33,965 nt of DNA from assembly GCA_946410555.1 (NCBI GenBank), contig CAMKAT010000013.1, positions 1 through 33,965 of the forward strand. Direction: 5' to 3'. The translations under genes were made by a program, and so were the position numbers. Under the pieces are notes generated by a model that made no database searches, was not told the DNA's origin, and was given only the letters and a program-made list of their open reading frames with translations. The DNA is from an uncultured Caryophanales bacterium (GTDB lineage Bacteria > Bacillota_I > Bacilli_A > RF39 > UBA660). Below, one piece after another: positions 21,358 to 26,721 of this stretch (position 1 is its first letter; the number at the start of each line of letters is the position of its first letter).

Positions 21358-22983
21358 ATGAAGAGAGTAAAATCAATATTATTTGCAATCTTAATTGCAT
21401 TTATAATTGGATTTGCTGGATTAGGATCAGTATTTGCTGCTACTAGTTTACCAAACTCAATTAAAACTGCTGACTTAACTGGAAACGGTAAGTATAAGAC
21501 AGTTAACTACATCATTGGTACTGCACAAGATGGTAAAAAGTACACTTATCCAATCGTAGTTAAAAAAGCTACAAATGGAAAATATGTATATTGTATGGAA
21601 TTAGATGCTACTTACAGATATAATGCAGATTATAAGAAAACTGGTAAAGTAGACGATGGTTTCATCTACATCATTGAATCAAACATTAATACTGGAGATT
21701 CTGAAAAGGATTTCTACATCAAACAATTAGCTGTTTGGTATTATATGGACTATGTTAATGGTAATAACAATAACTTAGAACCAAATTTAAAAAATTACAT
21801 TATTTATCATTCAAAAGATAGTAATAGAGAAAATTATGATGTTTGTAAAAAAGTAATTGATCTATTAAATGGAGCAATTAACTATAAACAAGCAAATGCA
21901 TCTATCGACTTAGTTGATGGACAAGTTACTTTCTCAATTGTTGATGGATACTATGTATCTTCAGAAATAGTTGTTAATAGTAACAATGTTAAAAATATTA
22001 AGTATTCTTTAACTAATACTCCAAAAGGATCTCAAGTAGTTAAGAGTACAAATGGTGTTAAAGTTAAAATACCTACTTCTGCTATTAAAGCTGGAGAAAA
22101 ATTAACATTTAGCTTAAATGTAAAAGCTGAAGGTGAAAACAAAGCAGCTTATTACTATTTTGCTAATTCAAAATTACAAAAATTACTTTACAGTGAAGTT
22201 GAAACTACTTCAACAAATGTAAGTGATGAATTAAAAATGACAATTGCTAACGTTGATTACACAATCAATATTAGTAAAACTGATGTAACTCAATCTAAAG
22301 AAGTAGAAGGAGCTACATTAGAAGTTAAGAATGAAAAGGGAACATTAATTGAAAAATGGGTATCTACAAAAGAAACTCATAAGATTACATTAAAACCAGG
22401 TAAATATTCATTAACTGAAACTATTGCACCTGCTGGATATAAATTATCAAAAACAACAATCGAATTTATGATTGATGTTACTGGTACAATTTATGTTAAA
22501 GACCAAAATGGTGTATACAACAAAGTTGATCATGTAGTTATGATTAATGAATTAGAAGATTCAGTTTCAATCGCTAAATTAGATAGTGAAACTGGAAAAC
22601 AAGTAGCTGGTGCTAAATTAGTCATTAAAGATTCTAATGGTTATGTAGTATCAGAATTTACTACTACTGATAAAATGTATTCATTACAATTAAAGAGTGG
22701 AGTTTATACTTTATATGAAGTTGAAGCTCCTGCTGGTTATGAATTAAGTAAAGATGTTGTAACATTCAAATTATTAGATGATGGTACAGTTCAAGTACTT
22801 AATGGTAATGGTAAATACGAAGATGTAGTTTACGTTACATTCTACAATAAGAAAAAACCAGAAGAAAGAAAAGAAGTAGAAGTTCCTGCAACAGGTAAAA
22901 ACGCAACATTATTATTAATAAGTGGTCTTGCATTACTAATTGGTGGAGCATTCTATGCTAAGAAATCTATCAAAGAATGCTAA
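21358..22983 (+). CDS. Sortase-anchored adhesin/pilin with thioester domain and two SpaA-type isopeptide domains
   Basis: A 541-residue surface protein. A signal peptide (1-28, ending VFAA) leads into an N-terminal thioester-type domain. There C79 (VYCMELD) and Q123 (KQLAVWYYMD) match the Cys-Gln pair that forms an internal thioester for covalent host binding; the usual TQ is KQ here. Two SpaA/Cna-B domains follow, each with Lys, Glu and Asn in isopeptide positions: K307, E354 (TETIAPAGY), N397; and K407, E454 (YEVEAPAGY), N497. The C-terminus has sorting signal VPATG (509-513), a hydrophobic segment and a Lys-containing tail. The next gene encodes a sortase, its likely anchoring enzyme. CAAGGGGG provides the ribosome site. 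The bond assignments are by motif position. Confidence 0.9.
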   Translation: MKRVKSILFAILIAFIIGFAGLGSVFAATSLPNSIKTADLTGNGKYKTVNYIIGTAQDGKKYTYPIVVKKATNGKYVYCMELDATYRYNADYKKTGKVDDGFIYIIESNINTGDSEKDFYIKQLAVWYYMDYVNGNNNNLEPNLKNYIIYHSKDSNRENYDVCKKVIDLLNGAINYKQANASIDLVDGQVTFSIVDGYYVSSEIVVNSNNVKNIKYSLTNTPKGSQVVKSTNGVKVKIPTSAIKAGEKLTFSLNVKAEGENKAAYYYFANSKLQKLLYSEVETTSTNVSDELKMTIANVDYTINISKTDVTQSKEVEGATLEVKNEKGTLIEKWVSTKETHKITLKPGKYSLTETIAPAGYKLSKTTIEFMIDVTGTIYVKDQNGVYNKVDHVVMINELEDSVSIAKLDSETGKQVAGAKLVIKDSNGYVVSEFTTTDKMYSLQLKSGVYTLYEVEAPAGYELSKDVVTFKLLDDGTVQVLNGNGKYEDVVYVTFYNKKKPEERKEVEVPATGKNATLLLISGLALLIGGAFYAKKSIKEC

Positions 22984-23581
22984 GCTAACACTTAGCATTC
23001 TTTTCATATTCGTGGGGTTGTGCTTAATCTTATGTACATACTTTGCAAAAATTAAAGATAATTTATTTGCTGAAAAGAGTAAAACTTTAATTCAAGAAGT
23101 TGTAGATTTTGATGAAGATGCTGGTCAAGAATTATCATTAAATGAAGAAGAGGAAACACCAGTTCAATCTGGAAATGGAAGATATGATTATATCGGATAT
23201 TTAAGAATCCCTTCAATCAACTTAGATAGAGGATTTGTTTCACTTGATAATCCTTATAACTATGTTAATTACAATATTCAATTAATTAAGGGTTCTGATA
23301 TGCCTGATGTTAAAAATGGTAATTTAATACTAGCAGGTCATAAAGGAACATCCTCAGTATCTTACTTTAGTAAATTACATAACTTAAGTCTTGGAGCACA
23401 AGCTCAAGTAGAATATAATAACAAAACTTATAGTTATAAGTTAGTTAATATATATAATGTTGCTAAAGATGGAACAGTAGAGATTGTAAGAGATCCTACT
23501 AAGAAAACATTAACTTTAATTACATGTACACATTTAAGTAAGACCGAACAAACTGTGTATATATTCGAGTTAATAGATTAA
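22955..23581 (+). CDS. Sortase, partner of the VPATG adhesin
   Basis: I choose ATG 22955 with GGTGGAG (22942-22948) upstream; a TTG at 22940 is the alternative. The product has 208 residues: an N-terminal membrane anchor (about 10-32), an acidic linker (45-68), then the sortase barrel starting YIGYLRIPSINL. H129 (LAGHKG) and C191 (TLITCTH) are the catalytic pair. The usual catalytic Arg a few residues after the Cys is not seen: the segment reads C-THLSKTEQTVYIFEL. The gene overlaps the adhesin gene by 29 nt in another frame, which should couple their translation. A terminator-like hairpin lies across this overlap. The sortase class is unclear. Confidence 0.85.
   Translation: MLRNLSKNAKLTLSILFIFVGLCLILCTYFAKIKDNLFAEKSKTLIQEVVDFDEDAGQELSLNEEEETPVQSGNGRYDYIGYLRIPSINLDRGFVSLDNPYNYVNYNIQLIKGSDMPDVKNGNLILAGHKGTSSVSYFSKLHNLSLGAQAQVEYNNKTYSYKLVNIYNVAKDGTVEIVRDPTKKTLTLITCTHLSKTEQTVYIFELID
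22972..23004 (+). terminator. Terminator-like hairpin inside the adhesin-sortase overlap
   Basis: AAAGAATGCTAAG (22972-22984), loop CTAACA, CTTAGCATTCTTT (22991-23003), and a short T run. The 13-bp stem is perfect. It spans the adhesin stop and the first codons of the sortase, so it probably lets only part of transcription reach the sortase. Confidence 0.7.
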
Positions 23582-23605: not shown

Positions 23606-24283
23606 ATGAAAGAGTTATCAATTATAGAAATAATTACTACTGCATTTAATGCAGTTAAAGATTCAAAGATTATTGTATTATTTGGATTAGAATTATTAAT
23701 TCTATTAATCCATTTAGTATTTAAAAAATCTATGGATAAGAAAATTAATAATAGAGTATCTTTAGGAGCTAGTTTATTATTACTTGGTTTCTATTTAGTT
23801 AACTATATTAATACTTTAAAAGTATTTGTTGATAATGTATCAACAAAACTATTAGATTTAATATATTTTCCTACAACTTTAGAATTTATAATTGTGGTAA
23901 TTCTTTCAATTATCATAAGTATATATACTTTAGTTAAATCTAATAAGACTTCATTAAAGATTGTTAATATACTTATACCTACTATTATTTCATTCTTATT
24001 CTTCTGTATTATTGAAAATGTTAATACATTAGAATTAGATTTTAATGAATTTAGTGTATTTACTAATTCAACATTAATGAGTCTTCATGAACTTGCTATG
24101 GGATTATTTATCTCTTGGATTATAGGTTTAATTCTATATAAAGTAGATGAATATGTAATTAATAAAGCAGTCAATGAAGTATATGAAACTGATTACAATT
24201 ATAAGACAGTTAATGCTTTATCAATTGATGAAATTAATAATCAAGATGAAGAATTAGAAATGCCTAGATTAAAAATGAACTAA
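23606..24283 (+). CDS. Polytopic membrane protein of the adhesin-sortase operon
   Basis: A 225-residue protein of unknown family with about five hydrophobic segments (near 20-40, 50-68, 90-112, 120-140 and 160-178). A short soluble C-terminal tail is acidic and ends PRLKMN. It starts 24 nt after the sortase stop behind a GGGGG ribosome site, with no promoter between, so it is probably the third gene of the adhesin operon. A role in adhesin export or sortase control is only inferred from position. Confidence 0.72.
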   Translation: MKELSIIEIITTAFNAVKDSKIIVLFGLELLILLIHLVFKKSMDKKINNRVSLGASLLLLGFYLVNYINTLKVFVDNVSTKLLDLIYFPTTLEFIIVVILSIIISIYTLVKSNKTSLKIVNILIPTIISFLFFCIIENVNTLELDFNEFSVFTNSTLMSLHELAMGLFISWIIGLILYKVDEYVINKAVNEVYETDYNYKTVNALSIDEINNQDEELEMPRLKMN

Positions 24284-24349: not shown

Positions 24350-24371
24350 AATAGTAGAATAGGAGATGTGT

Positions 24372-25061
24372 ATGATGAATAACGAATTTGAAAACACAAC
24401 TAATATAGTCCCAGGTACACCTGATCAACCTTCTACTCCAGAAGCAATCGCAACTCCAGTTGAGACTTCTGCTCCAGTAGAACAAGCTCCAATATCTTTT
24501 GATAGTCCTGCTCCAGTAGCTTCTGCTGCTCCAGTAGTTGAAGATGTAAAAGTTACAGAAGAGGTTCCTGTATCAGTTGAACCACCTGTAGTAGAAAGCC
24601 CAGTAATGGATGATACTAATGTTGCAGTTGCTCCTGCAGTAGAACCTGCTCCAATTGTTACTCCTGATGTAGCACCTGTTGCACCAGTTGTAGCTCCAGC
24701 TCCTGTAGTTGAGCCAGCTCCAATTGATGTTGCTCCAGTTGTAGCACCAGTAGTTGAACCTGCACCAGCAGCTCCAGTAGATGTTGCTCCAGTTGTAGAA
24801 CCAACTCCAGTAGCAGCTCCAGAACCTGCACCTATTAGTGATGTTCAACCATTAGTTGATTCAAATACTGATGTAGTTAATGCACCAACACCATTTGATG
24901 CACCAATTCCTACAGTTGATCCAGTATCTGAACAAGAAACATTAAGTAGTGAGGTACCTGTTAAAGCAAATAATACTGTTAAGATTATTTCAATTGTATT
25001 AATTCTTGCTGGTATTCTTGTTTGCGGTTATGTACTTTTTACAACAATAACAGGAAAATAA
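24372..25061 (+). CDS. Tail-anchored Pro/Ala/Val-rich repeat protein
   Basis: I choose ATG 24372, 6 nt after AGGAG; ATG 24375 is equally possible and 24366 is too close to the ribosome site. About 229 residues. There is no signal peptide. Residues 10 to 195 are a low-complexity region built of degenerate units such as APVVEPAPI and DVAPVV, rich in Pro, Ala, Val and Glu, which should be extended and disordered. A single membrane segment at about 203-224 (VKIISIVLILAGILVCGYVL) lies next to the C-terminus. The topology is that of a C-tail anchor with the repeat region in the cytoplasm, though the reverse cannot be excluded. Function unknown. Confidence 0.75.
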   Translation: MMNNEFENTTNIVPGTPDQPSTPEAIATPVETSAPVEQAPISFDSPAPVASAAPVVEDVKVTEEVPVSVEPPVVESPVMDDTNVAVAPAVEPAPIVTPDVAPVAPVVAPAPVVEPAPIDVAPVVAPVVEPAPAAPVDVAPVVEPTPVAAPEPAPISDVQPLVDSNTDVVNAPTPFDAPIPTVDPVSEQETLSSEVPVKANNTVKIISIVLILAGILVCGYVLFTTITGK

Positions 25062-25088
25062 AAAAGGATTTTAAAAATCCTTTTTTTT
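25060..25088. terminator. Bidirectional terminator between convergent genes
   Basis: AAAAAAGGATTT (25060-25071) pairs with AAATCCTTTTTT (25076-25087). It serves the repeat-protein gene and the convergent sortase gene. Confidence 0.8.
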
Positions 25089-26721
25089 ATGAATTAATTT
25101 TTACTGCGTGAATTACAACTCTTTGTGAAGAACCAACACATGATGATAATGTTAATATCTTATCACTTGAATTTACTTCAGTATTAAAGTTATAAATACT
25201 TCTTGATTTTAACATGTTAACGAAGTTATTGAATTCATCGTCGTTATTAAATTCAGTAGCTAAATAATCATTTGTAACGTCTGTTCTATAAAGTGAGAAG
25301 ATTTTCCAGTTTATAGTTTCATTTTTAGTATTAAATGATATTACATAATTTTCACTATTCTTGTACCATGAAGAGGATAGTGTATTTTTTAATGTTCCAA
25401 ACATAATACCTGTTTTTATATTATGTCCATATATTATAGTATTTTTATCTAAGTTGTCTGGATTGTTTCTATAATCCATAAATATCCAGCCCATGCTGTT
25501 TTTATTTTGTCTGAAATCTCTATTCAAGTAATATGAATTACTATCTTTATTTTGGACTACAGGATAATCTATTTTTGTATTGTTTACTTTTAACCATCCA
25601 ACTGTATCATTATTTATTTTAAGTAAGTCTTCGATTACTCGAGAGTAGTTAATATAATATGGAGATACATAATTAGATTTTCTTTTAGTTGTTTGATTAA
25701 AGTCTTCAGCTCTAATATAATTTATGTCTTTTTTATTATCATCAAGAGTAGGTTCTATCCCTGAATTAATTAGGGAAGATATATCATCCATTTGACCATT
25801 TATCTTTTGTTCATCCATATATTGATTATATGAAGTAATTCCTGCATATATACCAATTAATGTTAATATGATAAATAGTACTGTACATATAAGTTTGATA
25901 TTTATTTCTTTAAAGAAATTTAAAAATCTATATTCTTTAGAATATTCTAATTTAAATTCAATGTTATTTTCTTGAATGAATTTCTTATATTGTTTTTTAA
26001 TGTAGTTTATTACTCTTAGTATTTCATCAACATTATTATTCTTTTCATTAATATATATTCTTATATTCTTTTTATTATTTTTCTTTAAATACTCAAGAAC
26101 TGTTAAAAGTGTTTCATTTGAATATTTAAGTACTCTTATTTGTTTTAATTTATAGTTAATAGATAAGAAGAAGTCTAGATCATTTATTATTTGATTAGAC
26201 ATTTCTACATCTATTATTAGTTCTCTTTTGTAATAAAAGTCTGTATATGTATCTAAGTGATTATCTATTAAGAATAGATTTTTTTCTTTGATAGTATGTC
26301 TTGTTAAAACTTTAATATTTTTCTTATCTAACATTTCTATTAGGTAAGGGGACATTTCATAACAATCTATTTTCTTTAAGGATTTACAACAAACAATTTT
26401 ATCGTAGATATCAGGAGTTATTAGTTCATCATCTATAAAATTTATTTTTTCTACCGTTTTAAAGTTCTTTACTAAATCTAAGTAGATTAAATCCATATCC
26501 ATATTTTCAATAACTACAGATTTAACTCCATATTTAAGTACAATTAAGTTTAAAAAGTTTAGTACTATATCATAGTTTTTTCTGATATAAGTGAAAGAGA
26601 AAACTAGATCATCTGCAGTTATTACATTAGTGTTATTTAGCTTCTTTAAATCTACGCTTTTTTCAACTTTTGAAATATATAAAATTTTACTAATTATTTT
26701 AAATTTTATGTTGTATTCCAT
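25087..26721 (-). CDS. Class-B-like sortase fused to a large N-terminal predicted cytosolic domain
   Basis: A 544-residue protein. Residues from about 365 to 544 are a sortase of the SrtB type: NNDTVGWLKVNNTKIDYPVVQ, YLNRDF, GWIFMDYRN, H433 in IIYGHNIKTG, C528 in LTLSSC and R534 in QRVVIHAVKI. All three catalytic residues are present. A membrane segment at about 276-298 precedes it. The first 270 residues are outside any sortase model I know: soluble, Lys/Ile/Asp-rich, with alternating strand-like and helical stretches (KTVEKINFIDDELITP, SLKKIDCYEMSP) that faintly resemble leucine-rich-type repeats. With an ordinary inside-out anchor this half would be cytosolic. TAGGAG lies upstream of the ATG. 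No substrate gene is adjacent apart from the VPATG adhesin 2 kb away. Confidence 0.85.
   Translation of the reverse strand: MEYNIKFKIISKILYISKVEKSVDLKKLNNTNVITADDLVFSFTYIRKNYDIVLNFLNLIVLKYGVKSVVIENMDMDLIYLDLVKNFKTVEKINFIDDELITPDIYDKIVCCKSLKKIDCYEMSPYLIEMLDKKNIKVLTRHTIKEKNLFLIDNHLDTYTDFYYKRELIIDVEMSNQIINDLDFFLSINYKLKQIRVLKYSNETLLTVLEYLKKNNKKNIRIYINEKNNNVDEILRVINYIKKQYKKFIQENNIEFKLEYSKEYRFLNFFKEINIKLICTVLFIILTLIGIYAGITSYNQYMDEQKINGQMDDISSLINSGIEPTLDDNKKDINYIRAEDFNQTTKRKSNYVSPYYINYSRVIEDLLKINNDTVGWLKVNNTKIDYPVVQNKDSNSYYLNRDFRQNKNSMGWIFMDYRNNPDNLDKNTIIYGHNIKTGIMFGTLKNTLSSSWYKNSENYVISFNTKNETINWKIFSLYRTDVTNDYLATEFNNDDEFNNFVNMLKSRSIYNFNTEVNSSDKILTLSSCVGSSQRVVIHAVKINS

Follow-up and report, generated by a model that had tools for sequence, protein, structure and literature searches.

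A class B sortase joined across the membrane to a conserved, predicted cytosolic domain

The window analysed here (33,965 nucleotides, contig CAMKAT010000013.1 of assembly GCA_946410555.1, from an uncultured Caryophanales bacterium) carries an ATG-initiated open reading frame for a 544-residue protein in which a large N-terminal domain, a membrane segment, a linker and a class B sortase domain follow one another (Table 1). The initial annotation had described a sortase joined to a large N-terminal domain, and the reading frame, as well as the size (approximately 265-270 residues) and place of that domain, were confirmed. Convergent with this gene is one for a protein of 231 residues (24366-25061, plus strand) that is rich in Pro, Val and Ala and has a C-terminal membrane segment; between the two lies an inverted repeat bordered by runs of A and T (approximately 25062-25088) that is possibly a two-way terminator. 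Elsewhere on the plus strand of the window, a SpaA-like surface protein ending in VPATG (21358-22983; the motif becomes VPATS, VPATD or VPSTD in relatives) precedes a short sortase of its own that is not of class B (22940-23581). In 9 of the loci compared, this sortase adjoins a multi-pass membrane protein of 225 residues (here 23606-24283) for which Pfam has no family. Because that short sortase adjoins it, we do not claim the VPATG protein as a substrate of the fused sortase.

Table 1. Parts of the fused sortase gene, with their positions in the window and the evidence on which each assignment rests.
Feature	Position	Strand	Evidence
Whole gene: N-terminal domain, single membrane segment and class B sortase, 544 residues	25087-26721	-	Full-length conservation in relatives
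N-terminal domain, residues 1-270; predicted cytosolic alpha/beta solenoid, weakly leucine-rich-repeat-like, no Pfam or NCBIfam family	25912-26721	-	AlphaFold2, Foldseek, family searches
Single transmembrane segment, residues 277-295, with positive residues N-terminal of it	25837-25893	-	Hydropathy and charge, 18 aligned relatives
Variable acidic/Thr-rich extracytoplasmic linker (predicted), residues 296-355	25657-25836	-	Alignment
Class B sortase catalytic domain, residues 356-544	25090-25656	-	PF04203, TIGR03064 over cut-off, PDB SrtB matches
Catalytic His433 (YGHN)	25423-25425	-	Invariant in 108 relatives
Catalytic Cys528 (TLSSC)	25138-25140	-	Invariant in 108 relatives
Catalytic Arg534	25120-25122	-	Arg in 105 of 108 relatives, Lys in 3

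Family searches placed the C-terminal half of the protein among class B sortases, with PF04203 (Sortase) matching residues 377-540 and TIGR03064, the NCBIfam equivalog for class B sortase, matching residues 339-531 at 170.6 bits against a cut-off of 153.75. The closest solved structures by sequence are likewise sortase B entries, 1ng5 being the best (3.6e-37) with 4ux7 and 5gyj close behind; the first is SrtB of Staphylococcus aureus and the other two are SrtB of Clostridioides difficile. All three catalytic residues (H433, C528 in a TLxTC-type motif, and R534) are present, in line with the earlier description of a complete sortase, and their conservation extends across the 108 fused relatives. 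The exchange of the catalytic Arg for Lys is seen in L006, L012 and one further fused relative, and some fused sortases of the window genus (L006, L007, L009) carry a Thr/Glu-rich tail C-terminal of the catalytic domain.

The protein thus described shares with SrtB of C. difficile and S. aureus the catalytic domain, the His-Cys-Arg residues and a single N-terminal membrane anchor. Class B sortases cleave signals of the NxxTN or (S/P)PXTG type and attach the proteins bearing them to the wall. Known SrtB enzymes, however, have a short cytosolic N-terminus and usually total about 250 residues, whereas the membrane segment here comes after a conserved domain of some 265 residues. The contrast drawn in the initial annotation, with SrtB-type enzymes of about 250 residues and a short anchor, is broadly right but does not hold throughout, as many members of a sister class B clade from this bacterial family (L202-L219) bear other, unrelated cytosolic extensions that are often low-complexity and very variable in length. 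Repeated LEKT/LENT-type motifs occur in two of these sister-clade proteins (L206 and L207). On sequence grounds, the protein of the window is a class B sortase variant with a family-specific, predicted cytosolic domain.

The placement of the two halves on opposite sides of the membrane follows from hydropathy and charge. The protein has one strong hydrophobic segment (mean KD 2.63), and its second hydropathy peak (residues 52-70, 1.62) falls within a predicted strand/helix region of the folded N-terminal domain and is lower in most relatives. Within 20 residues on each side of the strong segment, five Lys/Arg and three Asp/Glu precede it while one Lys/Arg and four Asp/Glu follow it; a single membrane segment, with basic residues outnumbering acidic ones before it, was found in 18 of 18 aligned relatives. 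Given this charge bias and the single segment, residues 1-270 should be cytosolic and the catalytic domain extracytoplasmic (N-in, C-out), a topology predicted from sequence that agrees with the one first proposed. A second membrane segment that could place the N-terminal half outside was sought by hydropathy in the window protein and the 18 aligned relatives, and none was found.

Evaluating how widely the fusion occurs, we found full-length relatives at 37-74% identity both in the source genus and outside it, with the N-terminus conserved among them. A profile of the N-terminal domain matched 66 of the 193 genomes sampled from this bacterial family (about a third, and 47 of 148 genera), nearly always in frames of 515-612 residues; where frames were not cut by a contig end, the domain was followed in nearly every case by a membrane segment and a sortase. 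Class- and phylum-wide searches outside the family returned only short, marginal matches, which we take as chance, and a plasmid search returned no match. One genome holds a second copy with half of the N-terminal domain. That two genes were joined by a sequencing error, or that the 5' part is non-coding, is scarcely credible: the genomes are metagenome assemblies, but no support for such an artefact was found, the same unbroken frame recurs in dozens of independently assembled genera, and the N-terminal part is conserved at the protein level, so that the relatives already contradict it. When 143 sortase domains were placed in a tree, the fused proteins stayed together and 27 non-fused class B sortases formed one clade, further label changes stemming from four long-branch rows of uncertain place. 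This pattern fits a single origin of the fusion, which, judged by these comparisons, is real and old.

The N-terminal domain itself showed no convincing Pfam or NCBIfam family, no leucine-rich-repeat (LRR) Pfam match at threshold, and, when its profile was compared with solved structures, nothing below E 0.7. An AlphaFold2 model built from 16 sequences predicts alternating strands and helices arranged as an alpha/beta solenoid (mean pLDDT 87.7), in which the loop at residues 30-34 is the lone low-confidence stretch. With this model, Foldseek matched nothing in the PDB at E<=0.001; TM-scores were low, and the LRR proteins tropomodulin, CARMIL and SDS22 were among the matches. Against viral models, a leucine-rich-repeat protein came first (E 1.2e-4, probability 1.00), and many of the lower-ranked matches were LRR or F-box proteins. 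Profile self-comparison of the domain found no internal sequence repeats, and LxxLxLxxN-type units were not found. The domain may resemble LRR proteins in its predicted strand-helix solenoid and in the viral-library matches that they lead, but differs from them in having no repeated sequence motif, no LRR family match at threshold and no significant PDB match. Because of the low TM-scores, the lack of a PDB match at that threshold and the lack of sequence repeats, the LRR label is a weak one, and we describe the modelled fold as weakly LRR-like.

Comparing the rates at which the two halves have changed, the N-terminal domain diverges faster, with a median pairwise identity of 31% against 50% for the sortase, as would be expected of a binding scaffold rather than of an enzyme. 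Among the 108 fused relatives, N189 is invariant, N154, N49 and K165 are kept in 94-96%, and the N30-T31-N32 loop in 80-90%; Y260, F185 and F150 are also among the most conserved positions. These polar positions could form a ligand site, and the loop at 30-34 stands apart as the only low-confidence part of the domain model, both of which would suit a cytosolic sensor whose binding of a ligand or signalling protein would gate the activity of the sortase on the far side of the membrane. We nevertheless regard such a sensor as unlikely, since family searches gave no similarity to sensor, kinase, cyclase or nucleotide-binding families, a single-pass link that leads into a variable linker some 60 residues long is a poor conduit for a conformational signal, and the domain diverges fast overall. 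The initial annotation had proposed that a cytosolic signal or partner might control the transpeptidase; with fast divergence, a solenoid-like predicted fold and no similarity to sensors or enzymes, an adaptor or positioning role would fit at least as well as control by a cytosolic signal.

A further observation on the N-terminal domain comes from three species of one genus (L135, L136 and L137), which encode a protein of 289-294 residues consisting of this domain and the membrane segment without a sortase. Two of the three also carry the full fused protein, and the stand-alone genes adjoin mraZ/mraW in L136 and L137 and a gene for a PrsA-like foldase in L135 and L136. These paralogues indicate that the module can exist without the enzyme. 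They are additions confined to one genus, and apart from them the N-terminal half is not a separate gene in the relatives. They also bear on whether the domain is a passive anchor that sets topology, stability or membrane retention only, with no specific partner. The unrelated, often low-complexity extensions of the sister clade suggest that a large tail in the cytosol may be of general benefit, but the domain is a conserved, folded one (as modelled) with near-invariant polar residues, and it persists without the sortase in one genus, which leaves a purely passive role improbable, to about the same degree as the sensor.

To relate the fused sortase to possible substrates, we counted C-terminal sorting signals (a short motif, a hydrophobic stretch and a basic tail) in the proteins encoded by divergent neighbours within 420 bp, using the 93 loci whose upstream sequence was long enough. 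Here the divergent upstream reading frame ended in such a signal in 49 of the 93 loci, compared with 10 of 179 control frames under the same rule (Fisher p 1.5e-18, a value that overstates independence because the loci come from related species), and in 5 further loci a same-strand gene carried one. The motifs are mainly NPxTG, with SP, TP, EP and QP variants; the domain type varies among loci, being often cohesin-like, possibly vWA-like in some, and different again in others. One neighbour that we modelled (pLDDT 75.6 overall, about 90 in the core) matches cohesin modules in the PDB, and ScaE of R. flavefaciens, a cohesin protein that a sortase anchors, is a functional analogue of this cohesin-like type. 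In many relatives the neighbour resembles the NPXTG-anchored proteins of NCBIfam NF033846 in being small and secreted with an NPxTG-like C-terminal signal, although the NF033846 match of one such protein lies below the cut-off (E 0.22) and the type is absent from the window. SrtB of C. difficile is reported to cut (S/P)PXTG (PMC5118464), a specificity that resembles the signals adjoining relatives of the fused sortase. Taking linkage and motif together, the divergent NPxTG-like neighbour is a probable substrate of the sortase.

The same linkage could be read as a sign that the N-terminal domain acts in the cytosol as a dedicated chaperone of the adjacent NPxTG protein, for instance by binding its nascent chain or signal peptide before export. 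Such a substrate chaperone would be in keeping with the strong linkage of the gene to that of one secreted protein and with a solenoid-like fold, which binding proteins typically have, but the domain type of the linked protein changes while the N-terminal domain remains one family, and the linked substrate is missing at several loci, including those of the source genus, so that we consider this reading quite improbable and less so only than an artefact. The source genus has a gene for an RNB-domain protein in the divergent position and lacks the NPxTG neighbour; the source genome encodes five proteins ending in NPKTG signals that are unlinked to the fused sortase, together with a second, short class B-like sortase, which could serve these five proteins instead. 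Across the family, NPxTG-type motifs are enriched in 187 of 193 genomes whether the fused sortase is present or absent, which lends no support to an exclusive pairing of motif and enzyme.

Our preferred reading, which we put forward tentatively and at somewhat less than an even chance, sees in this protein a single-pass sortase of type II topology, of the same kind as SrtB of C. difficile, equipped with a cytosolic docking or positioning module built on an LRR-like solenoid. The extracytoplasmic catalytic domain would cut NPxTG-like signals at the Thr-Gly bond and attach the proteins bearing them to the wall, and the expected signals are NPKTG, NPETG, NPDTG, SPxTG, TPxTG and QPSTG. The N-terminal domain would remain in the cytosol as a putative LRR-like alpha/beta solenoid and act as a docking platform for a cytosolic or inner-membrane partner, for example of the secretion or division machinery, and docking would place the sortase where its substrates emerge. 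Docking is the most likely role for the domain given its fold type, its fast divergence and the stand-alone paralogues.

Our search of the open-access literature revealed no paper on a sortase with a large cytosolic domain, which is weak evidence of novelty as subscription papers lay outside that search. How sortases are placed at envelope sites and matched to their substrates is poorly understood. Because a conserved, predicted cytosolic domain of no known family is here joined to the enzyme through the membrane, the sortase is probably retained or guided from the cytosolic side. It is possible, though we hold this with more doubt than the docking model, that these proteins represent a family of transmembrane sortases in which a dedicated, previously undescribed solenoid domain in the cytosol positions or switches transpeptidation at the surface, the domain also occurring without the enzyme in membrane proteins encoded close to division genes. 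A sortase with a built-in, conserved and predicted cytosolic domain, for which nature also supplies enzyme-free versions, would offer a direct handle for finding the cytosolic partner.
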